DNA of 45,420 nucleotides. Origin: Sandaracinus sp. (GTDB lineage Bacteria; Myxococcota_A; Polyangia; Polyangiales; Houyiibacteriaceae). Below the pieces are notes generated by a model that saw only the letters and a program-made list of their open reading frames with translations, ran no database searches and had not been told where the DNA came from. The stretch is from contig PABA01000119.1 of assembly GCA_002699025.1 (NCBI GenBank), positions 1 to 45,420 of the forward strand, read 5' to 3'. The stretch's first letter is position 1. Each line of letters opens with the position of its first letter. Positions 9,659 through 45,240 of the stretch are shown piece after piece. The translations under genes and the position numbers were made by a program.

Positions 9659-10173
9659 GATCGAGCTCCGGCCCTCGCCTGGAGGGCCGCGCGACGCAGG
9701 GGGGCGCCCCTCCGCGCCGGCCCCGGCGAAGGGGCGCAGCGCAGGTGTCGGCGCGCGCGGTCGCGAAGCGCACGCCGGGGCGCGGTGCCGGGCCCCGTCG
9801 GGACGCGGCATGCCGGCGCACCGGCACCGGTGCGGTGCGCCTCCGCGGCGGGAGCGCGGCCCCCTCGTCAGGGAGACGAGAGCGCGCGCTCGCTCGACCG
9901 CCGCGGCCTCAGCTCGATGCCGGCCAGACGCAGATCACCGCGTAGTCCGCGGAGCGCGGACGCCAGACGACGAAGTCGGGGCAGCGGGAGAGCATCGTGG
10001 CCTCGGGTCGCCCCGGGAGGGCGATGCGCGAAAGGCTAACCACGCCCGCGGGGCGCGCAAGGACCGTCGCGCGCAGCCCCCGGAGTCCCGAACGAGCGGG
10101 GGGCACCCCAGAGACGCCCGAGGGGGTCGAGGAGCGCTCCCCTCATCCCCGACGCGGCCCGCGGCGCGACGCG
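9659..10173. other. Spacer upstream of the EF-G paralogue with a long palindrome
   Basis: This 515-base stretch has no clear gene. At 9816-9840 lies a near-perfect inverted repeat: arms GCGCACC and GGTGCGC enclose the palindrome GCACCGGTGC, with one extra G. It would lie about 160 bases upstream of the EF-G start codon on the leftward transcript and could be an operator or leader structure. A 28-codon leftward frame at 9909-9995 is listed separately. Confidence 0.4.
9909..9995 (-). CDS. Possible 28-residue small protein
   Basis: A short leftward frame starting at ATG 9995 with a GAGG five bases upstream. Its product is Cys/Trp/Val-rich (two cysteines, two tryptophans), unlike the Arg/Ala/Gly-rich chance frames typical here. 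It extends upstream in frame to 10106 without a better start. It lies between the unknown gene ending at 10174 and the EF-G paralogue on the same strand. It could be a leader peptide or chance. Confidence 0.2.
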   Translation of the reverse strand: MLSRCPDFVVWRPRSADYAVICVWPASS

Positions 10174-19099: not shown

Positions 19100-19150
19100 G
19101 AGCAGTCCCTTGCTATGCGCATGATCCGCCCCTCGCGCCACCCGAAGCGG

Positions 19151-19850
19151 CGGTTTCCGCTCGCTGCGCTCGCGGTTTCTTGGCTTACCAGCGGGCCCGT
19201 GGGGCCCTCGGCGCGACCTTTGGTCGCGTCACACGGGTCGGTTCTTCGTCGGTACACGAACGCGGCTCCGTGGGGCCGGGCGACCGGGCAGATGCTGGAG
19301 CGCTCCCCCTCCGCAGTGGCGGGGCTTTACCGCTCTCGCGGCCGGTGCGCTCCCCCGACGGTGCGGTGACTCTGCCGCTATCACGGCGGTTTCCGCTCGC
19401 TACGCTCGCTGTTTTGCTTACCAGCGCGGCCGTGGGCCGCTCGGCGCCGCCTGCGGCGGCGTCACACGGGTCGGTTCTTCGTCGGTACACGAACGCGGCT
19501 CCGTCGGGCCGGGCGACGGGGCAGATGCTGGAGCGCTCCCCTCCGCAGTGGCGGGGCTTTGCCGCTTTCGCGGCCGGAGCGCCCCCCTCCGCAGTGGCGG
19601 GGCTTTGCCGCTCTCGCGGCCAGTGCGCTCCCCGACGGTGCGGTGGCTTTGCCGCTATCGCGGCGTCTTCCGCTCGTTTCGCTCGCGGCTTCTCAGGCTT
19701 GCCAGCGGGCCCGTGGGGCCGTCGGCGCGACCTTCGGTCGCGTCACACGGGTCGGTTCTTCGTCGGAACGCGGCTCCGTGGGGCCGGGTGACGGGGCAGA
19801 TGCTGGAGCGCTCCCCTTCGCGGTGCGGTGACTTCGCGGCCGGCTGGACT
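19151..19850. repeat. Three tandem copies of a 236-277 base hairpin-rich repeat
   Basis: Copies run 19151-19386, 19387-19663 and 19664 to about 19850. Copy 2 contains an internal duplication of about 48 bases and copy 3 is shortened. Each holds a conserved core with GCTT(A/G)CCAGCG, two hairpins, CACACGGGTCGGTTCTTCGTC and GCAGATGCTGGAGCGCTCCCC. The arms of both hairpins change in step between copies. No gene is supported in 19100-19930: open frames exist but differ between copies by frame and content. The same core recurs at 44.6-44.8 kb. Confidence 0.8.
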
Positions 19851-35302: not shown

Positions 35303-38300
35303 TCAGCGCCCCCGGCGCCGGCGCATGAGCTCCCGGCGCTTCGCGGCGCGGTCCGCCGCCTTGCCGAGCTTCTCCTGGCTGTCGCCCGCTCCGTCGAGGT
35401 GCTTGGCGAGCTCGCCGAGCACGGGGAAGCGGAAGATGTCCGTGATGGAGAGGGTCGCCCCCGAGAAGGCGGCCTTCAGCTCCCGATGCGCCTGCACGGC
35501 GAGGAGCGAGTGCCCCCCGAGCTCGAAGAAGTTGTCCTTCGAGCCGACCTGCCCGACGCCGAGCACCTTCTTCCAGACGTCCGCGATCTTCTGCTCCGCC
35601 TCGCTCTCGGGCGCGACGTACTGGGCGACCTTCTTCTTCTGCACCTCGTCCGGGCGCGGCAGCCGCTTGCGGTCGACCTTCGCGTTCGGCGTGAGCGGGA
35701 AGGCGTCGAGCACGACGAAGTGGCTCGGCACCATGTACTCCGGCAGCGTGCCGCCGAGGTGCGCCCTCAGCGCCTCCTCCTCGACCTCGCCGCTCGTGGT
35801 GAGATAGGCGACCAGCCGCTTGTCCCCGGGCGTGTCCTCGCGCGCGATGACCACCGCCTCGCGCACGGCCGAGAGCTCGTTCAGGCGCGACTCGATCTCC
35901 CCGAGCTCGATGCGGTAGCCGCGGAGCTTCACCTGGTGATCGACGCGCCCGATGAAGCCGAGCGTGCCGTCCGCGTTCCAGCGCACGAGGTCGCCCGTCC
36001 GGTACATGCGTGCGTCGCCCCCGCGGAAGGGATCCTTCAGGAAGCGCTCCCGCGTGAGCTCGTCGCGGTAGAGGTAGCCGCGCGTCACGCCGGCGCCGCC
36101 GATGTAGAGCTCGCCGGGCACGCCCACGGGCACGGGCTGCCGGTTCGCGTCGAGCACGTAGAGCTGCGTGTTCGCGATCGGCGTGCCGATGCCGGTGATC
36201 CCGTCGCCGGGCGCCGCCACCTGCGTCGACGACCAGATCGTCGTCTCCGTCGGCCCGTACATGTTCACGACCTGGGCCTTCGTGAGCTTGCCGATCTCGC
36301 CGACGAGCGCCCCCGGCAGCGCCTCGCCGCCGATGAGCCAGGCCTTCAGCCCGCCGAGCGCCTCCCGCGCCCGATCATCGAGCGTCATCATGCGCGCCAT
36401 CGACGGCGTGCACTGCATGTGCGTGACCTGCTCGCGCTTCAGCTGCGCGCCGAGGCTGTAGTCCTCGCTCGGCGCGTCCGTGACCACCGGCTGGTTCGTC
36501 CGGCGGATGACCGCGCCGACCCGCTCGATGCTCTCGAGCACCTTCGGCGTGGGCACGCCGTAGTCGACCAGGCAGGCGATCTCGTCGACGCCGATGGCCT
36601 TGCACTGGTTCACGCGCTTCACGGCGTCGTCGACCGTGCCGAAGAGGCCGCTGTCCTCGAAGTAGCGCTGGAAGGCGAAGTCGAGGATCGCCTCCATCTC
36701 CTCCGAGTCGAGCGAGCCGAGGTCGATGTCGAAGGGCGAGTCGACGCCCTCGGGCTTCTTGAACGCGGGGAAGGCCCAGGCGTAGGCCTTGATGAGCCCG
36801 GCGGCGCTCCGCAGGTAGTCCTTCATCGGCTCGCGCGCGATGTCCCGCGACAGCTCCCGGGTCTCGTCGATGTACGAGTGGAGCATGAGCGTGACCTTGC
36901 GCGAGGCCGGGTCGTAGCCCGCCTTCTCGAGCGCCTCCCGGTAGATGCGGATCTTGTCGGCGACCTCGTCGAGGCTCTGCCCGAGCAGGTGCGTCAGCAC
37001 GTGCGCGCCCGCCTCGCCGGCCATCCGGTAGGTCTCCGGGTTGCCCGCCGTCGTGACCCAGACCGCGAGCTCGTCGCTCACGGGCCGGGGCTGCGTGACG
37101 ACCGCGTGCATGGAGCCGTCGGCCTTCGGGAACTCGACCTCTTCGCCGCGCCAGAGCTTCTTGACGATCTCGATCGACTCGAACATCGCCTTCTTGTTGT
37201 TCGGCGGCGCGTTCTCCGGGCGCAAGATGAAGTCGTCGGGCTGCCAGCCGCTCGCGAAGGCGAGGCCCGTGCGGCCGTTCGAGATGTTGTCGAGGACGGC
37301 CCACTCCTCCGCGATGCGGATCGGGTGGTGGAGCGGGGCGACGCAGCTGCCGGCGCGGATGTCGAGGTTCTTGGTGACGGCGGCCACGGCGGCGCCGGTG
37401 ACGGCCGGGTTCGGGTAGGGGCCGCCGAAGGCGTGGAAGTGGCGCTCGGGCGTCCAGCAGGAGGTGTAGCCGAGCCGGTCGGCGAGCTTCGCGCCCTCGA
37501 GGAGGCACTCGTACTTCTTGGGGCCCTGCCCGTCGTCGTTGCCCCAGTACATCAGGCCGAAGGCCATGGGCTTGGCGGCCACGCTCGGGTCCACGTCGCC
37601 GGCGGCCTTCACGCGCTCGCGGTCGCGGTGCACGACGACCTCGAAGCCGCGGGCGAGCGTCCAGAAGAGCTCGAGCACGCTGATGTCGAAGCTGAGCGAG
37701 GTGACGGCGAGCCAGACCTCGCGGCTCCCCTCCTCGCGCGGGATGCGCGCGTCCATCCCGGTGAAGAAGTTCGAGGCGTTCCGGTGCTCGACCATCACGC
37801 CCTTCGGCCGGCCCGTGGAGCCGGACGTGTAGATCACGTAGGCGAGGTTCGCGCTGGTCCAGCCCGGCACCTCCACGCGCCCGTCGCTCGCCCGCTCGAG
37901 GTGCGGGTCGTCGTCGATGACGAGGACGTCCGCGTCCGTGCGCAGGCCCCCGCGCGCCTCGCGATGCGTGACCACCACCTTCGCCCGGCTGTCCTCGAGC
38001 ATCAGGTGGATGCGGTCCTCCGGGTACTCCGGGTCGAGGGGCAGGTAGGCGCCACCGGCCTTGAGGATGCCGAGCGCGCCGACGACCAGCTCGAGGCTGC
38101 GCTGGCAGTAGAGGCCGACGATCTGGTCCGGCCCCACGCCGCGCTCGCGGAGCACGTGCGCGACCTTGTTCGCCCGCGCGTCCAGCTCGCGGTAGCTCAG
38201 CGCCTTCCCCTCGAAGACCAGGGCGCGCGCGTCGGGCGTGCGATCGACCTGCGCCTCGAAGAGCTGGTGCATGCCCTGCGTGGACTCGTAGGGCACCTCG

Positions 38301-39877
38301 GTCGCGTTCCACTCGTGGAGGAGCGTGCGCCGCTCGGCGTCCGTGAGGAGCGGCAGCTCGGAGACCTCCGTCTCCTCCTCGTCGGCGGCGGCCATGAGCA
38401 CGCCGAGCCGGCGGGCGAGCGTCTCGGCCTCGGCCTTCTCGAGGCGCGTGGCGTCGTAGTGGATCGCGGCGGAGGTGATGGTCACGCCCGCGTCGTCCAC
38501 GGGGCCCGACTCGGTCGGCGCGAGGATCACGTCGAAGCGGCCCCGGGTCGCCCGCGGGTGCCGCGCCGTCAGATCGCGCGCGTAGGTCACGCGCTTCTCC
38601 ACCCGCGCGAGCTCCTTGTCGAGGAGCGCCACGAGCGAGCCGACGTCGTCGCTCGCGTCGACGTGCAGGGGCACGGCCGGCGCGAAGTAGGCCTCGTCGC
38701 CGGCGATGGCCTCGGCCAGGCCCTTCGAGCGCCACCCCACGTGGAACTCGCTCTTGCCGCCGTTCCGCGCGAGGAAGGCCACGACGCCGGCGACCCAGGC
38801 CGAGCCCTCGAGGCCGGCCGCGTCGAAGGCCACGCTCTCGAAGCGCGGCGCCTCGCCGTGCGGGCCCACCTGCGGCACCTCGATCGGGTCGAGCTGCACC
38901 AGGCGCTTGGCCCAGAAGTCGTCCGCCTTGCAGATCTCGGCGTTCCGCTCCGTGAGCCGCTGGCGCACGTCGGCGCCCGGGTTCTGGAGCGTCTGCCCCT
39001 CGAGCGTCGACGGGCAGCGCGGCTGGCCCTCCTGATCGCTCAGCGCGAGCAGGCGCACGGCCCCGGTGCCGGCGGCCACGGTGGCGCCGTCCGGGCTCGC
39101 CTCGAGCACCTGGCCCGGCGCGCCGCTCCCCTGGGCCGTCTCGGCGGCCCGCACGACGAGCACCTCGCCGTCCTGGGTGACGACCTTCGCGAGGTGGAGC
39201 GGGTTCGGGTAGTTGGCGCCGTAGTCGAGCGCGCGCACGAGGCGCACGGCCGCGTCCGCGTCGGCGCTCCAGTCGACGAGGGCCAGGGCCTCGGGCCGGT
39301 CGTGCTTGCCGAAGTAGGTGCGCTGGGAGAGGTCCTGCTCCTCGCCGCCGGCCGTGCCGCCCTCGATGCGATCGAGCACCTCGGGGAAGCTCTCGATGGC
39401 CGCCTCGTAGCAGCGCGTGTTCAGCTCGAGGGCCGTCGCGCCGGGGGCGATGTCGAAGAAGCGCTGCGCGAGCAGGCGCCCCTCGTCGACGCCGCCTTCG
39501 ATGCGGTGCCAGCTCACGCCGTGCTGGCTCTCGCCGTTCAGGAGCGCCCAGTTCGGCGCGTTCAGGCCGGCGTAGCGCGGGAGCGGGCCGTCGTGGAAGT
39601 TCACGCCGCCCTGGCGCGCCTTCGCGAGCACCGCGTCCGGGATGATGCGGAGGTTCGCGATGCTGAAGAACCAGTCGAAGTCCTCCGTGATCCGCTCGGC
39701 GAGGCCCTTGCCGGGGCTGAGCACGGGGATCGAGCGCGAGAGGGCCCAGGCGGCGATGTCCGCGTTGTCGCTGATGACGCCGCGCACGGTGTGCCCGCGC
39801 TGCAGGAGGATCTCGGCGCACTGCACCAGGAGGGACTCGGCCCCCATCAGGTAGCTGCTGAAGGTCTGACTGCTCAT
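35303..39877 (-). CDS. Single-module NRPS: formyltransferase - degenerate C - A split by luciferase-like monooxygenase - PCP
   Basis: A 1524-residue enzyme. Residues 1-300 are a formyltransferase-fold domain with the catalytic N93, H95 (NFHDGPLP) and D131 (GVDEGRLL). Residues about 320-520 resemble the tail of a condensation domain without HHxxxDG. The adenylation domain starts near 520, with A3 YTSGSTGRPKG (683-693) and D731 in SFDISVLELF. A luciferase-like FMN monooxygenase (about 765-1125) is inserted there, and the A domain resumes with NMYGPTETT (1205-1213), YRTGDLV (1292-1298) and K1400 in NAKVDR. The carrier domain has S1457 in GGHSLLA. This matches the MupA/Atu3671 type of LLM-bearing NRPS. 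There is no thioesterase, so release must be in trans or spontaneous. ATG 39877 follows a strong GGGAGG site. Formylation and oxidation of one tethered amino acid is my inference. Confidence 0.93.
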   Translation of the reverse strand: MSSQTFSSYLMGAESLLVQCAEILLQRGHTVRGVISDNADIAAWALSRSIPVLSPGKGLAERITEDFDWFFSIANLRIIPDAVLAKARQGGVNFHDGPLPRYAGLNAPNWALLNGESQHGVSWHRIEGGVDEGRLLAQRFFDIAPGATALELNTRCYEAAIESFPEVLDRIEGGTAGGEEQDLSQRTYFGKHDRPEALALVDWSADADAAVRLVRALDYGANYPNPLHLAKVVTQDGEVLVVRAAETAQGSGAPGQVLEASPDGATVAAGTGAVRLLALSDQEGQPRCPSTLEGQTLQNPGADVRQRLTERNAEICKADDFWAKRLVQLDPIEVPQVGPHGEAPRFESVAFDAAGLEGSAWVAGVVAFLARNGGKSEFHVGWRSKGLAEAIAGDEAYFAPAVPLHVDASDDVGSLVALLDKELARVEKRVTYARDLTARHPRATRGRFDVILAPTESGPVDDAGVTITSAAIHYDATRLEKAEAETLARRLGVLMAAADEEETEVSELPLLTDAERRTLLHEWNATEVPYESTQGMHQLFEAQVDRTPDARALVFEGKALSYRELDARANKVAHVLRERGVGPDQIVGLYCQRSLELVVGALGILKAGGAYLPLDPEYPEDRIHLMLEDSRAKVVVTHREARGGLRTDADVLVIDDDPHLERASDGRVEVPGWTSANLAYVIYTSGSTGRPKGVMVEHRNASNFFTGMDARIPREEGSREVWLAVTSLSFDISVLELFWTLARGFEVVVHRDRERVKAAGDVDPSVAAKPMAFGLMYWGNDDGQGPKKYECLLEGAKLADRLGYTSCWTPERHFHAFGGPYPNPAVTGAAVAAVTKNLDIRAGSCVAPLHHPIRIAEEWAVLDNISNGRTGLAFASGWQPDDFILRPENAPPNNKKAMFESIEIVKKLWRGEEVEFPKADGSMHAVVTQPRPVSDELAVWVTTAGNPETYRMAGEAGAHVLTHLLGQSLDEVADKIRIYREALEKAGYDPASRKVTLMLHSYIDETRELSRDIAREPMKDYLRSAAGLIKAYAWAFPAFKKPEGVDSPFDIDLGSLDSEEMEAILDFAFQRYFEDSGLFGTVDDAVKRVNQCKAIGVDEIACLVDYGVPTPKVLESIERVGAVIRRTNQPVVTDAPSEDYSLGAQLKREQVTHMQCTPSMARMMTLDDRAREALGGLKAWLIGGEALPGALVGEIGKLTKAQVVNMYGPTETTIWSSTQVAAPGDGITGIGTPIANTQLYVLDANRQPVPVGVPGELYIGGAGVTRGYLYRDELTRERFLKDPFRGGDARMYRTGDLVRWNADGTLGFIGRVDHQVKLRGYRIELGEIESRLNELSAVREAVVIAREDTPGDKRLVAYLTTSGEVEEEALRAHLGGTLPEYMVPSHFVVLDAFPLTPNAKVDRKRLPRPDEVQKKKVAQYVAPESEAEQKIADVWKKVLGVGQVGSKDNFFELGGHSLLAVQAHRELKAAFSGATLSITDIFRFPVLGELAKHLDGAGDSQEKLGKAADRAAKRRELMRRRRGR

Positions 39878-40068
39878 CGATTCCTCCCTCTCCCCCGGAC
39901 GCGGCGGGACCCACACCCGAGTCACGCGCCGCGTTCAAGCGTGTATGCCACCCTCCTACCCTGCCTGGCAATCGACGACTCGCTGCGGTGAGCGGGTCGT
40001 CACGCGGGTGACGCAAGGTCACGCGGTCGTCCGGCACGACGCGCCGGACGCTCCTCCGCCGCGCTCCC

Positions 40069-41643
40069 TCAGCCGCCCTCCTCGAAGTCCTCGCTCGGTG
40101 GGAGCCGCTCGGGCCGGGTTCGCTCCCGGGGCAGCGCGTCGGGGGGCTCGGCGCCGTCCCCCAGGCGCGTCGGCGCGTGGAAGTCCTCGTGGGACATGGG
40201 CAGGCCGTGGCGTCCGTCGCCGAGCTCGTCGCGCTCCTCCCCCTCCGAAGAGCGGATCGCGTCGTAGGCGCTCAGGAAGACGGCCGAGACCACCTCGGCG
40301 AAGACGTCGCGGGTCGGCTCGTCGGCGAAGACGAAGCGCACCTCGTCGAGGTGCACGGTGCCGAGCTGGAGGTGGAGGCGGAGCGCCGAGGCGATCGCGT
40401 GACCGGAGGCCTCGACGGTGATGCCGCCGCGGCCCGTGCCGAGGGCGGGGACGGCGAGGCGCCGGTAGCCCTCGCGCTCGGCGATGGCGAGGGCCCGGTG
40501 CATGGCGCGACCGACGCAGGAGACGCGGCGCCAGGCGGAGACCGCATGCAGGACCGCGCGGCAGGGCAGCGAGCCGGCCGTCGTGGGGACACAGGCGCCG
40601 AGGGCGCGCTCGCCCCCGGCGCGGGCCTCCTCCTCGATCGCCGCGCCGCCGGCCCGGACCAGGGCCGCGCCGACGCCATCGTCCATGCGCATCTCGGCGT
40701 AGGCGCTGTTGACGACCGCGTCGCAGGGCACCGCCGCGATGTCGCCGACCTCGAAGGCCAGGCGGCAGCCCCCCGCCTGGAGGTAGCGCCCCTGGCGGCG
40801 CGTCGGCAGGCGGGGGTGGATGGTGCGCGCGAGCTGCCGGAGCACGGCGGCCGTGGTGCCGGCGGTGCGCGGGCGGGCCTCCGGGCGGCGCGCGAGGAGG
40901 CGCTCGAGCACGTGCTGGAAGTAGGCCTCGTCGGGGCTGGTCGCCGGCGGGAAACGCGGCGGCACCTCGGGCCGGGCCGCGTCCGAGCTGCTCGCGAAGG
41001 GGGCGAGGCCGTAGCGGAGCGCGAAGGCCGTCGCGCCGAGGGACCAGAGATCGGCGCGCCGATCGACGCCCTCCCCGAGGAGCTGCTCCGGGGCCATGTA
41101 GTCGACCGTCCCCGCAGCCCGGCTCCCCTCGGCGGCGGCCGCCTCCACGGCGACGCCGAAGTCGCCGACCTTCACCCGGCTCTCGCCCTCGAGGAAGAGG
41201 TTGGCGGGCTTCACGTCGCGGTGGATGACGCCGGCCTGGTGCGCCGCGTGGAGCCCCTGGGCAGCCTGCGCGGTCCACTCGGCGACGGCCCAGAGCGGCA
41301 GCGGGCGGCGGAGCGCCTCCCGGCGGGCCGCGGCGAGCTCGGCGAGGTCGAGGCCGTCCACGTACTCCTCGACGACGCAGGGCGTCCGGCGGCCGTCGCG
41401 GAGCTCCGCGTCGCCCACGTCGAGCACGCGGACCACGTGGGGCGAGGCGACGCGCGCGACGAGCCGCGCGGAGCGGTGGACGCCGGCCGCGACGTCCTCC
41501 CGATCGGCGAGCACGGGCGCGATGGTCTTGACCACGACCGGCGCGGAGAGCGCGACGTGCTTGCCGAGGTAGACCTCCGACATGCCGCCGCCGGAGAGCC
41601 GCCCCCAGACCTCGTAGCGATCGAAGAGCTGCCCCTGGATCAT
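40069..41643 (-). CDS. Ser/Thr protein kinase fused to a macro domain
   Basis: A 524-residue cytoplasmic protein. The Hanks-type kinase spans about 9-275: the Gly loop GRLSGGGMSEV, K39, HRDVKPAN (141-148), DFG (161-163) and APE (184-186) are all present, so it should be active. Residues about 298-452 are a macro domain (VGDIAAVPCDAVVNSAYAE, DDGVGAALVRAGG, CVPTTAGSLPCRAVLHAVSAW, ALGTGRGG), a fold that binds or removes ADP-ribose. An acidic tail follows. No membrane segment is seen. The ATG at 41643 is embedded in a 20-base repeat array and overlaps the stop of the last mini-ORF (ATGA). Neighbours are a Wza-like export gene upstream and the NRPS 191 bases downstream. Targets are unknown. Confidence 0.92.
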   Translation of the reverse strand: MIQGQLFDRYEVWGRLSGGGMSEVYLGKHVALSAPVVVKTIAPVLADREDVAAGVHRSARLVARVASPHVVRVLDVGDAELRDGRRTPCVVEEYVDGLDLAELAAARREALRRPLPLWAVAEWTAQAAQGLHAAHQAGVIHRDVKPANLFLEGESRVKVGDFGVAVEAAAAEGSRAAGTVDYMAPEQLLGEGVDRRADLWSLGATAFALRYGLAPFASSSDAARPEVPPRFPPATSPDEAYFQHVLERLLARRPEARPRTAGTTAAVLRQLARTIHPRLPTRRQGRYLQAGGCRLAFEVGDIAAVPCDAVVNSAYAEMRMDDGVGAALVRAGGAAIEEEARAGGERALGACVPTTAGSLPCRAVLHAVSAWRRVSCVGRAMHRALAIAEREGYRRLAVPALGTGRGGITVEASGHAIASALRLHLQLGTVHLDEVRFVFADEPTRDVFAEVVSAVFLSAYDAIRSSEGEERDELGDGRHGLPMSHEDFHAPTRLGDGAEPPDALPRERTRPERLPPSEDFEEGG

Positions 41644-41823
41644 GGCTTCGGGAGAACGCTCATCGCTTCGGGAGGACGCTCATCGCTTCGGGAGAACGCT
41701 CATGGCTTCGGGAGGACGCTCATCGCTTCGGGAGAACGCTCATCGCTTCGGCAGGACGCTCATCGCTTCGGGAGGACGCTCATCGCTTCGGAAGGACGCT
41801 CATCGCTTCGGCAGGACGCTCAT
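41641..41823 (-). repeat. Chain of nine overlapping mini-ORFs (MSVLPKR/P), 20-base tandem repeat
   Basis: Nine exact 20-base units (41641-41820), with a diverged tenth at 41821-41840. On the minus strand each unit reads ATG AGC GTY CTN CCG AAG CSA TGA and encodes MSVLPKR (seven times) or MSVLPKP (twice). Starts are at 41823, 41803 and every 20 bases to 41663. Each TGA overlaps the next ATG as ATGA, so the frame shifts at every step. The last TGA overlaps the kinase start at 41643. Two of the three variable sites are wobble positions. No strong Shine-Dalgarno precedes each unit, so terminating ribosomes would have to reinitiate. The peptides, the act of translation, or repeat number could matter, or the array could be slippage-derived. 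Confidence 0.85.
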
Positions 41824-41888
41824 CGCTTCGGGACGACCTGCCGCGGGACGACGCACGAGACGGGGACCGCTGCGGGCCCGTACGGCAT
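41820..41888 (-). CDS. Possible 22-residue leader ORF feeding the mini-ORF chain
   Basis: ATG 41888 lies nine bases after the wza-like stop codon, with CCAGGG just before it. The product has 22 residues, is rich in Pro and Val, and ends in VVPKR, matching the PKR end of the repeat peptides. Its TGA overlaps the first chain ATG (41823) as ATGA. This links the wza-like gene to the kinase gene by uninterrupted stop-start steps. Translation is not proven. Confidence 0.4.
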   Translation of the reverse strand: MPYGPAAVPVSCVVPRQVVPKR

Positions 41889-41897
41889 CCCTGGCTG

Positions 41898-42905
41898 TCA
41901 GGGGCTGTCGCTGAGGGCGCGCGCGGTGACGTAGAGCAGGCCGATGCTCGTCGGCTGGGAGAGGAGCGCGGAGATGCGCCCGAGGACCTCGCCCGTGTGC
42001 GCGGTCCACTCCTCGGTCACGTACACGATGTCGCCCGGCGCCATGACGATGTCGTTCCGGTTGCCGTTCACGACCTCGCGGAGGCTCGCGCGGTAGACGA
42101 GGGGCTCGCTGACGGGCCCGCGGACGATGTGCACGTCCGTGCGATCGCCGCGCTCGTTCAGGCCGCCGACCCCCGCGAGCACCTCCGTGAGCCGGATGCC
42201 CTCGTAGTGGCGGAGCACGGCCGGGTCCCGCACGGCCCCGAGCACGACGATGCCCTGCCCGAGGACCGGCGGTACGAAGAGGTGGTCGCCGGGGCGGACG
42301 TAGATGTTGTGCCGCGGGTCGCCCTCGTAGGCGCGGGCGACGCTGATCGGGAGCTCCTCCCCGTCGCGGACCAGCCGGGCCGCGTCGACGTCGGCCGCGA
42401 ACTCGCCTTCGCCGGGGTTGAGCACGAGGTGGGCGCTCGCCAGCAGGTCGACGACCCGCATGCCGGGCCGCACGGGGACGGATCCCGGCGAGGAGACGGC
42501 CCCCAGCACGGTCGCCGTGTGCCCGTCCGGGTCCTCGATGCCGATGGAGACGCGGACCACCGAGTCCAGCCGGCGCATGGCGGCCTGCACGCGCTCCTCG
42601 GCCTGGAGCAGGGTCAGCCCGCCGACCTCGACGTCCCCCACGAGCGGCAGGTGCACCTGGCCGCGGGCGTCGACGACGAGCCCCTCGTACTCGGTCACGT
42701 CGGCGGAGAAGGCGCGCACGACCACGACGTCCCCGGGCAGGATGACCATCGCCGGCGGCGGGTCCTCGTCCACGCCCGGGCGCTCGGCGATCTCCGGTGC
42801 GGAGAACGCCGGATCCTCCGTGGGGAGCGTCGGCGCGTCGGGGAGCCGCACGCATCCGAGGAGAACCACGCACGCCAACATTCCTCGCCACATGGGCGAA
42901 TGCAT
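41898..42905 (-). CDS. Polysaccharide export lipoprotein, Wza-like (Poly_export + SLBB domains)
   Basis: A 335-residue outer-membrane lipoprotein. The signal peptide ends in LLGC with C18 as lipid site. Residues about 55-135 form the polysaccharide export domain (ILPGDVVVVRAFSADVTEYEGLVVDARGQVHLPLVGDVEV). Two SLBB-type domains follow (VTVLGAVSSPGSVPVRPGMRVVDLLA and IVVLGAVRDPAVLRHYEGIRLTEVLAGVGGL). The family forms a channel for capsule or exopolysaccharide. I chose ATG 42905; ATG 42893 is four residues shorter and equally possible. It is divergent from a WcaJ-type transferase gene, which together point to an exopolysaccharide locus continuing to the right. The 216-base spacer (42906-43121) must hold both promoters. 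Confidence 0.93.
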   Translation of the reverse strand: MHSPMWRGMLACVVLLGCVRLPDAPTLPTEDPAFSAPEIAERPGVDEDPPPAMVILPGDVVVVRAFSADVTEYEGLVVDARGQVHLPLVGDVEVGGLTLLQAEERVQAAMRRLDSVVRVSIGIEDPDGHTATVLGAVSSPGSVPVRPGMRVVDLLASAHLVLNPGEGEFAADVDAARLVRDGEELPISVARAYEGDPRHNIYVRPGDHLFVPPVLGQGIVVLGAVRDPAVLRHYEGIRLTEVLAGVGGLNERGDRTDVHIVRGPVSEPLVYRASLREVVNGNRNDIVMAPGDIVYVTEEWTAHTGEVLGRISALLSQPTSIGLLYVTARALSDSP

Positions 42906-43121: not shown

Positions 43122-44525
43122 TTGGCCGCCGGCTTGGTGAAGCCCCACTCGCCCGCGCTGAGCGTGATCACGCGGGTCTTCGACGCGGGGCTGATCGCGC
43201 TCGCGCACTGGGTCGCGATCCTCGCCCACCAGGAGGAGTGGCGGAACATCCACACCACGGCGACCGTCGTGGCGGGCGCGGTGTTCCTGCTCGCCGGGCA
43301 GAGCCTCGGCCTCTATCGGGCGTGGCGCGGCGAGTCGATCGGCCGGGAGATCTGGCGCGTCTTCGCGAGCTGGGCGGCCGCCGCGAGCGTGCTCCTGCTG
43401 CTCGCCTTCGTCTCGAAGCGCTCCGAGGAGTACTCGCGCTTCATCTCGCTGGTCTGGGCGATCTCCTCCCCGGTCGCGATCGCGGCCTGGCGGACCGGGC
43501 TGCGGCTCAGCCTACGGCGCGCACGCAGCCGGGGGCGGAACACGCGGAGCGTGGCGATCGCCGGCCTGACCGAGCTCGGCGAGCGGGTCGCGCAGACGAT
43601 CGCCGAGAGCCCCTGGCTCGGCATGCACCTCGCGGGCTTCTACGACGACCGCTTCGAGGAGCGCGGGCACCCCATCCCGCCGGAGCTCGGCAAGCGCGAG
43701 GGGAACCTCGACGATCTCGTCGAGCTGGCGCGGAAGGGCGAGGTCGACCTCGTCTACATCGCGCTCCCGCTCCGGGCCGAGCCGCGCATCAACGAGCTCG
43801 TGCGGCGCCTCGCGGACTCGACGGCCTCCGTCTACATGGCCGCGGACTTCTACGCCTTCGACCTGCTCCACGCGCGCTGGGGCTCGCTCGGGGACGTGCC
43901 CGTCGTGAGCATCCACGAGACGCCCTTCTACGGCGTCGACGGCTGGCTCAAGCGCATGGAGGACATCGTCGTCGGCTCGATGATCCTCTCGATCATCGCG
44001 CTCCCGATGCTCTTCATCGCCCTCGGCGTGAAGCTCACCTCGAAGGGCCCGGTCTTCTTCCGGCAGCGCCGCTACGGGCTCAACGGCGAGGTCATCCACG
44101 TGCTCAAGTTCCGCTCCATGACCGTCATGGAGGACGACGGGCAGGTGAAGCAGGCGACGAAGAACGACAAACGCATCACGCCCTTCGGGGGGTTCTTGCG
44201 CCGGACCTCGCTCGACGAGCTGCCCCAGTTCTTCCACGTGATCAGCGGGACCATGAGCATCGTCGGTCCGCGGCCGCATGCCGTGGCGCACAACGAGCTC
44301 TACCGGACCAAGATCGAGGGCTACATGCTCCGGCACAAGGTGAAGCCGGGGATCACCGGCTGGGCCCAGGTCAACGGCTGGCGCGGCGAGACCGACACGC
44401 TCGAGAAGATGGAGAAGCGCATCGAGCACGACCTCGCCTACATCCGGAACTGGACGCTGCTCTGGGACATCAAGATCATCTTCCTGACCGTGTTCGGCCG
44501 GAAGGTCCGCAAGAACGCGTACTGA
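43122..44525 (+). CDS. Undecaprenyl-phosphate glycosylphosphotransferase, WcaJ/WbaP-like
   Basis: A 467-residue membrane enzyme that starts polysaccharide synthesis by moving a sugar-1-phosphate from a nucleotide sugar to undecaprenyl phosphate. Several membrane segments fill the N-terminal 120 residues, then a CoA-binding-like Rossmann domain (NTRSVAIAGLTELGERVAQ). A further anchor follows (VVGSMILSIIALPMLFIALGVKL), and then the catalytic domain with KFRSMTV, RRTSLDELPQF (D365-E366), GPRPH and KPGITGWAQVNGWRGETDT. The start is a TTG at 43122, set by GGAGG five bases upstream. Works with the Wza-like exporter on the opposite strand. The first sugar is probably glucose or galactose, not proven. 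Confidence 0.93.
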   Translation: MAAGLVKPHSPALSVITRVFDAGLIALAHWVAILAHQEEWRNIHTTATVVAGAVFLLAGQSLGLYRAWRGESIGREIWRVFASWAAAASVLLLLAFVSKRSEEYSRFISLVWAISSPVAIAAWRTGLRLSLRRARSRGRNTRSVAIAGLTELGERVAQTIAESPWLGMHLAGFYDDRFEERGHPIPPELGKREGNLDDLVELARKGEVDLVYIALPLRAEPRINELVRRLADSTASVYMAADFYAFDLLHARWGSLGDVPVVSIHETPFYGVDGWLKRMEDIVVGSMILSIIALPMLFIALGVKLTSKGPVFFRQRRYGLNGEVIHVLKFRSMTVMEDDGQVKQATKNDKRITPFGGFLRRTSLDELPQFFHVISGTMSIVGPRPHAVAHNELYRTKIEGYMLRHKVKPGITGWAQVNGWRGETDTLEKMEKRIEHDLAYIRNWTLLWDIKIIFLTVFGRKVRKNAY

Positions 44526-44775
44526 TTTTGCGCTCGCTGGCGCTCGCTATTGCGCTCCGGTCGTCGCTGCGCTCCTCCCTTCGCTGGCTTGCCAGCGCCT
44601 CGCCGTAGCCGGCGAGAGCTCGGCCTCGCTTCGCTCGGTCGCGGTGCTGTTTTTGCGCTCGCTGGCGCTCGCTATTGCGCTCCGGTCGTCGCTGCGCTCC
44701 TCCCTCCGCTGGCTTACCAGCGCCTCGCCGTGGCCGGCGAGAGCTCGGCCTCGCTTCGCTCGGTCGCGGTGCTGT
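44526..44775 (+). repeat. 125-base tandem duplication with hairpins
   Basis: Copies 44526-44650 and 44651-44775 differ at only three positions. Two of these fall in hairpin loops. Hairpins are CGCTGG-CTTR-CCAGCG and CTCGCCG-TRGC-CGGCGAG. The first copy starts right after the WcaJ-type stop. The GGCTTACCAGCG core with a hairpin after it is shared with the 19 kb repeats. Open frames are chance. Confidence 0.85.
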
Positions 44776-44947
44776 GGCGTATCGACGGGACCCGGCGCGC
44801 CTCTCCGCTGGGAGGGCTGCCGGGGACCAACCTCACACGGGGGGGGGCGGGCGCCCTCGGGTTCTCTCGGGTCTGCACCTTCGTAGCCTCGGTCGCTGGG
44901 CGCTCCCTCGGTCGTCGCGCCGGGCGCGTGGGCTGCATCTCGACCTC

Positions 44948-45240
44948 GTGAGCTTCGGTCGCCGCTGCGCGTCTCCCTGCGCACGAGTGGGTGCGTCGGC
45001 GTCGCCTGGCGCGTGAGCTGGGTCGCCGCTTCGCGCCTCCCTGCGCACGAGTGGGCGCGTCGGCGTCGCGTGAGCTTCGGTCGCCGCTTCGCGTCTCCTT
45101 GCGCACGAGTGGGCGCGTCGTCGTCGCGTGAGCTTCGGTCGCCGCTTCGCGTCTCCCTGCGCACGAGTGGGTGCGTCGGCGTCGCCTGGGGCGTGAGCTT
45201 CGGTCGCCGCTGCGCGCCTCCCTATGCGAAACCGCGCTTC
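44948..45240 (+). repeat. Five-copy 57-65 base tandem repeat
   Basis: Units begin with GTGAGC at 44948, 45013, 45070, 45128 and 45193. Each contains TCGCCGCTTCGCG-type and GCACGAGTGGG segments. Spacing alternates 65, 57, 58, 65 because an 8-base CCTGGCGC-like insert is present or absent. The stretch 44776-44947 has no gene or repeat that I can support. Confidence 0.75.

Follow-up and report, generated by a model that had tools for sequence, protein, structure and literature searches.

How does a gene stay open to ribosomes when a tandem repeat runs directly into its start codon? The question is raised by a locus of Sandaracinus sp. on contig PABA01000119.1, of which we analysed the whole 45,420-nt stretch (the window). 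A wza-like polysaccharide export lipoprotein gene (minus strand, 41898–42903, start codon approximate, stop TGA at 41900–41898; Pfam Poly_export 2.5e-13, SLBB 6.2e-16) is followed on the same strand by a gene for a Ser/Thr protein kinase with a macro domain (40069–41643; Pkinase 3e-34, Macro 2.3e-14), and the stretch between them is largely taken up by a 20-bp minisatellite. On balance we think it probable that this is a young, lineage-specific start-codon minisatellite that keeps stop–start coupling, with behaviour resembling that of mycobacterial interspersed repetitive units (MIRUs).

A chain of mini-ORFs ending on the kinase start codon

TRF delimits the array at 41640–41837 (minus-strand consensus ATGAGCGTYCTNCCGAAGCS, period 20, 9.9 copies, score 333). 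Direct reading and translation resolve nine 20-bp units at 41823–41640 on the minus strand, starting at 41823, 41803, 41783, 41763, 41743, 41723, 41703, 41683 and 41663. All nine are mini-ORFs of seven codons plus TGA, with the reading frame ATG AGC GTY CTN CCG AAG CSA TGA, in which the TGA sits within the ATGA of the following unit; seven encode MSVLPKR and two MSVLPKP. The tenth ATGA of the array (41643–41640) is the start of the kinase gene (ATGATC). On the other side, a 22-codon ORF (MPYGPAAVPVSCVVPRQVVPKR, 41820–41888, minus strand) begins at 41888, leaving a gap of 9 nt to the wza-like stop, and shares an ATGA with unit 1; its 3′ end, GTCGTCCCGAAGCGATGA, is the first repeat unit in degraded form. 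There are ten ATGA junctions, each with the –4 nt stop–start overlap of termination–reinitiation coupling. A preliminary description had reported nine ATGA-coupled MSVLPKR or MSVLPKP mini-ORFs with a 20-base period, which proved exact to the base, and a chain leading from 9 nt past the wza-like stop through the 22-codon ORF to the kinase start, which translation confirmed. It had also placed the differences between copies at two wobble positions and one further site, and the variable columns of the unit are indeed 9 (C/T) and 12 (any base), both wobble positions, and 20 (G/C), with the other 17 of the 20 invariant. The kinase frame is independent of array copy number because every unit restarts. 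The array TGAs close all frames upstream of the kinase, and the kinase-domain match runs from residue 13 (orthologues conserve this domain start), which leaves 41643 as the sole plausible start codon.

The repeat itself is far beyond chance; the coding chain by itself is not. A unit with a period of 2 mod 3 and an ATGA produces the chain automatically, provided that the frame is otherwise free of stops. Single-base changes that break it number 12 of 60, and the probability of an unbroken chain after four to eight events is 0.41–0.17. The earlier remark that no copy carries a nonsense change therefore holds, with no chain-breaking change in nine copies, as an outcome expected by chance (P ~0.2–0.4), and the position of ATGA among the invariant columns has a P of 0.49. 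A selection signal was looked for in the within-array variation and none was significant. The genome has a GC content of 74%, and a 1.14-Mb sample of it contained 204 non-redundant arrays and 166 TRF rows with a period of 14–30 and at least four copies, and chains of at least three ATGA, GTGA or TTGA occur in 6 of the 35 arrays whose period is 2 mod 3. The chain is thus weak evidence of function, as it follows automatically from period and motif, the genome is rich in minisatellites and the unbroken state is expected by chance.

Other repeats of the same genome are described here in their own right. The window contains further large tandem arrays at 44522–45223 and 19148–19825, with periods of 125, 58 and 233–275 bp. 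A dispersed 37-bp tandem-repeat family, CGTCCCGGGTACGGGTGTGCGTCATCTCACGCGATTC, forms GTGA-type chains at L092 10271–10648 and L104 10988–11288. Two 14-bp ATGA arrays were found (C46 ~10000–10060, L668; C165 37161–37234, L669), one of which leads from an epimerase-like stop to no gene, while the other stops ~70 bp before a gene start.

This abundance, the occurrence of chains in other arrays, the lack of significant junction or nonsense conservation and the existence of ATGA arrays without a gene are all points in favour of an inert minisatellite, one that expanded by slippage between the two genes, with the ATGA chain as a by-product and the kinase AUG initiated de novo, regardless of the mini-ORFs, at a weak non-Shine-Dalgarno or leaderless site. 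We consider this explanation credible, though doubtful. Where the array ends speaks against it: gene calls from a simple codon-usage predictor, with approximate starts, put 22 of 109 intergenic array flanks within 10 nt of a facing stop codon and 6 of 83 within 10 nt of a facing start, and among those 83 start-facing flanks this array alone makes a clean start-codon overlap at a period that is not a multiple of 3. The unusual feature is the array running into a start codon, and not the chain.

The regular spacing of 20 bp, about two helical turns, and the 17 invariant columns might also be read at the level of DNA, as direct repeats that make up an operator array bound by an operon regulator. 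This is very unlikely in our view. A search of the genome with the unit returned no second array, the matches to its 17-mer being isolated and carrying 1–2 mismatches, and the array lies between co-directional genes, has no detectable promoter and overlaps a start codon. The same search bears on a suggestion that MSVLPKR-like repeats might precede other genes of this genome; the unit occurs as an array at one locus only.

Initiation signals and the locus in relatives

No Shine-Dalgarno-like match was found at the kinase start; such a match is present in 55% of close operon-internal genes of this genome, where 4-nt overlaps join 76 of 398 co-directional neighbours (19%). A –10-like TAnnnT element is enriched ~12 nt before the starts of genes that have no near neighbour upstream. 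None occurs in the interval from the wza stop to the kinase start, which is weak evidence, as only ~18% of genes so placed have the element. Sigma-70-type promoter-like sites and terminator-like sites were looked for in the region and none was found. These signals fit coupled initiation but do not prove it, and the lack of any Shine-Dalgarno-like or –10-like element for independent initiation counts against the inert minisatellite. The array RNA is less folded than 100 of 100 shuffled sequences (z +2.1), so hairpins offer no explanation of the array. A structured leader RNA or attenuator was rejected on this weak fold, the absence of any Rfam family match at the array and the absence of a terminator-like site.

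Orthologues of the kinase-macro protein, at 62–64% identity, are encoded by G008 and G015, both from a single sister genus, and the array is absent at both. The gene order in the sister genus is a divergent sugar transferase, wza, an opposite-strand kinase gene, the kinase-macro gene and the megaenzyme gene described below; G015 has an outer-membrane-type gene as well, likewise placed after wza and before the kinase-macro gene. In G011 and G049, wza is directly followed by the megaenzyme gene. With orthologous kinases lacking both the array and adjacency to wza, the wza–array–kinase junction is lineage-specific, and a relay is not needed for the kinase elsewhere. Conserved ATGA junctions in related genomes, which the preliminary description had looked to as a check, are accordingly not what the sister genus offers, and the idea of a conserved or selected device finds no backing either in these relatives or in the within-array constraint, which is not significant.

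Two neighbouring genes deserve mention. The second Ser/Thr kinase gene of the sister genus, on the opposite strand in the gap between wza and the kinase-macro gene (L073 5062–5985, L074 3899–5893), is absent from the window. The megaenzyme gene, downstream of the kinase gene in the window (35303–39925, minus strand; assigned by profile matches and by synteny in relatives), is one ORF with a formyltransferase, an AMP-binding (adenylation) domain split by a luciferase-like monooxygenase insert, and a carrier protein, and adjoins wza in several relatives.

Start-codon arrays in other genomes and their periods

One genome per species, ~85,000 species in all, was scanned for five ATGA at 20-bp spacing, and 80 loci were read among the matches listed. 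Many 20-bp ATGA arrays are found among these matches, most of them ordinary repeats in intergenic gaps, where the flanking genes often converge. Several have the architecture of the kinase locus; hemB, hemL and oxidase genes were named by reading the sequence, and the remaining ones, with the class-III aminotransferase, by Pfam. In Marisediminicola senii (L170), four MSTDVAA units lead from a hemB-like stop to a hemL-like start (MSTDVKDD), the unit having the first 15 nt of hemL in common with that gene. A Pseudomonadales MAG (L197) has five units, mostly MSEDKQP, between an oxidase-like stop and an amidohydrolase gene. MTARLGT/MTVRLGT units run into an alpha/beta hydrolase beginning MTVESEE in a Streptosporangiaceae MAG, MIRTALR/MTRTALR units into a methyltransferase beginning MIRHRPP in a Planctomycetota MAG, and a further array into thiamine-phosphate synthase in Halocynthiibacter. 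A scan of the phylum added G133 (L678), where an MRKAPAR chain leads from an upstream stop to a gene beginning MRKAPKA (GC3 0.93), and G211, with seven MTESHPR/MTEGHPR units running into MTAYTL.... The loci of this architecture are L197, L170, L678, L216, L201, L159 and L672, and at the first three the array is continuous with the stop of the upstream gene. The array of the kinase locus is not an isolated oddity: in unrelated bacteria, too, arrays run up to the start codon of a real gene, and several are made from the first bases of that gene. Where the units repeat the 5′ end of the gene they precede, an origin by tandem duplication over its start codon is suggested. At the kinase locus the unit has only ATGA in common with the kinase's own 5′ end, and there birth from the start codon is suggested by analogy.

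A relay role for every 20-bp ATGA array was rejected, as those of Sporosarcina and G072 lie mostly at 3′ ends or antisense to the next gene. The Sporosarcina/Planococcaceae loci (including L187, L162, L139, L210 and L149) have 20-bp arrays of up to 24 units, of the form ATGA[GT]C..TT, a variable core and TTT, with low unit identity (0.55–0.75); some alternate MITFxDL and MSAFxGL, and most are found at the 3′ ends of genes or in the gaps of convergent gene pairs. Their conserved ends and variable core suggest what may be an unknown repeat family. Bacillus niameyensis (L196) has 89 near-identical units. In G072, two homologous genes share the ending ...HAISLFVAE, and just past their stops lie two related 20-bp arrays, ATGAGCGAGCTTTNNCGGCG and ATGAGAGAGCTTTCCYGCCW (L076 5730–6230 and L077 5625–6100); ATAA and GTGA interrupt the junctions of these arrays, and no sense gene is evident beyond them.

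If arrays at gene starts are translated, periods that rebuild the stop–start overlap should be favoured. We took as gene start the last ATG opening a candidate ORF of at least 80 codons, a threshold held constant throughout, and counted each unit sequence once, a rule added after one duplicated family appeared. In viral contigs, ATGA arrays end at a gene start in 12 of 126 cases at periods 17, 20, 23 and 26 versus 3 of 129 at periods 16, 19, 22 and 25 (one-sided Fisher P=0.013). Joining the viral contigs to the phylum scans (periods 20 and 19), with the window left out, gives 14 of 137 at 2 mod 3 versus 3 of 139 at 1 mod 3 (Fisher P=0.005), a roughly five-fold higher frequency of gene-start endings at the former. 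This bias agrees with coupling being kept and is a further point against the inert minisatellite; with 17 events, and with viral genes that are candidate ORFs, it is supportive and not decisive. A depletion of stop codons in low-identity arrays elsewhere (24 observed in the relay frame versus 31 expected, P 0.006) was set aside, because ATGA had been a selection criterion for the sample and an excess appears in another frame.

Known systems and a possible route to the kinase AUG

The closest precedent is the MIRU, reportedly described by Supply et al. in 1997 (Mol Microbiol 26:991). These elements are known at 41 loci (PMC2734929) and, in a later account, are start-codon tandem repeats in co-directional gene pairs whose internal ORF is coupled to the next at –4 nt and which are proposed to leave the expression of the gene largely unharmed (PMC12548453). 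The working principle is shared, with an internal small ORF in the sense direction that overlaps the following ORF by 4 nt, and the earlier statement that no such system had been described therefore fails. MIRU units are, however, ~40–100 bp, scattered and apparently mobile, whereas the array has 7-codon ORFs in a 20-bp unit, at one locus and with no sign of mobility. It also does not overlap the upstream stop, from which it is separated by the 9-nt gap and the 22-codon ORF, while L197, L170 and L678 do. On its unit length, single locus and lack of continuity with the upstream stop, we would not class the kinase-locus array as a MIRU. The intergenic repeats of senX3-regX3, which can drive senX3-independent expression (PMC4213456), are a caution that such regions may hold a promoter.

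Other systems share single features with the array. Termination–reinitiation gene pairs have the –4 nt overlap in common with it (PMC6728339, PMC10666635), but have one junction between two genes where the array strings ten together through mini-ORFs. Coupling peaks at –4 spacing, works best at short overlaps and declines with distance (PMC12548453, PMC10666635). In the axe-txe minigene (PMC8708949) and in uORF delivery (PMC12548453), a short ORF delivers ribosomes or influences downstream translation, but as a single ORF and not as a tandem, minisatellite-generated series. M. tuberculosis fpg1 is likewise preceded by variable intergenic tandem repeats, with units of 55/79 bp and no mini-ORF chain claimed for them; repeat length is linked to the expression of fpg1, longer repeats giving more of it (PMC2734929).

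A further proposal, in line with the preliminary description, is an adaptive, slippage-tuned attenuator, in which selection would act on mini-ORF copy number to fix and to vary the output of the kinase. The ten clean junctions with no chain-breaking change in nine copies, the recurrence of independent arrays at gene starts and the link between length and expression at fpg1 would suit such a device. We nevertheless judge it improbable, as the array is not conserved, gives no within-array selection signal and, were it to attenuate, would act against the direction seen at fpg1, where longer repeats raised expression (PMC2734929).

Under the start-codon minisatellite reading that we favour, the 20-bp repeat would have grown by tandem duplication across the kinase-macro start codon, presumably through slippage. 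Its period of 2 mod 3, together with the gene's own ATGA, would have recreated the stop–start overlap in every copy and turned the leader into a chain of 7-codon ORFs. Ribosomes could enter from wza by reinitiation, across 9 nt and then the 22-codon ORF, if wza and kinase share a transcript, or directly at any AUG of the array, and termination–reinitiation at each –4 overlap would hand them on to the kinase AUG. The repeat would be tolerated at the start codon, in the manner of a MIRU, as coupling persists. Most likely, then, the kinase is translated through the array, by ribosomes arriving from wza and entering at AUGs within it. Were the relay a pure one of 11 steps starting at wza, 9% of ribosomes would pass at 0.8 per step and 0.05% at 0.5 per step. 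Such leakiness suggests that direct entry at array AUGs matters too, and that the array probably attenuates expression or is merely tolerated, rather than promoting it. To the ribosome passage from export gene to kinase envisaged in the preliminary description, the relay architecture, the absence of Shine-Dalgarno-like and –10-like elements, the analogues and the phase bias lend support, and conservation and selection do not; the gene-less ATGA arrays (the 20-bp arrays of G072 with broken junctions and the 14-bp array after the epimerase-like stop in this genome) also count against a relay.

The locus illustrates how an unstable repeat can expand across a start codon and need not silence the gene, a four-base stop–start overlap being kept in each copy. 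If translation does run through the chain, the array would offer a ready series, from one to nine junctions, in which to study repeated reinitiation, as well as a slippage-prone means of altering protein output. A more general claim, that start-codon minisatellites with periods of 2 mod 3 form a general class of ribosome relays that has arisen many times in bacteria and phages, with slippage producing the serial junctions and their number tuning downstream translation, is one that we put forward tentatively and hold to be rather unlikely as it stands. The phase bias of start-codon arrays makes it testable in silico, and the broader pattern of independent start-codon origins with a period-phase bias is a more interesting result than the single locus.
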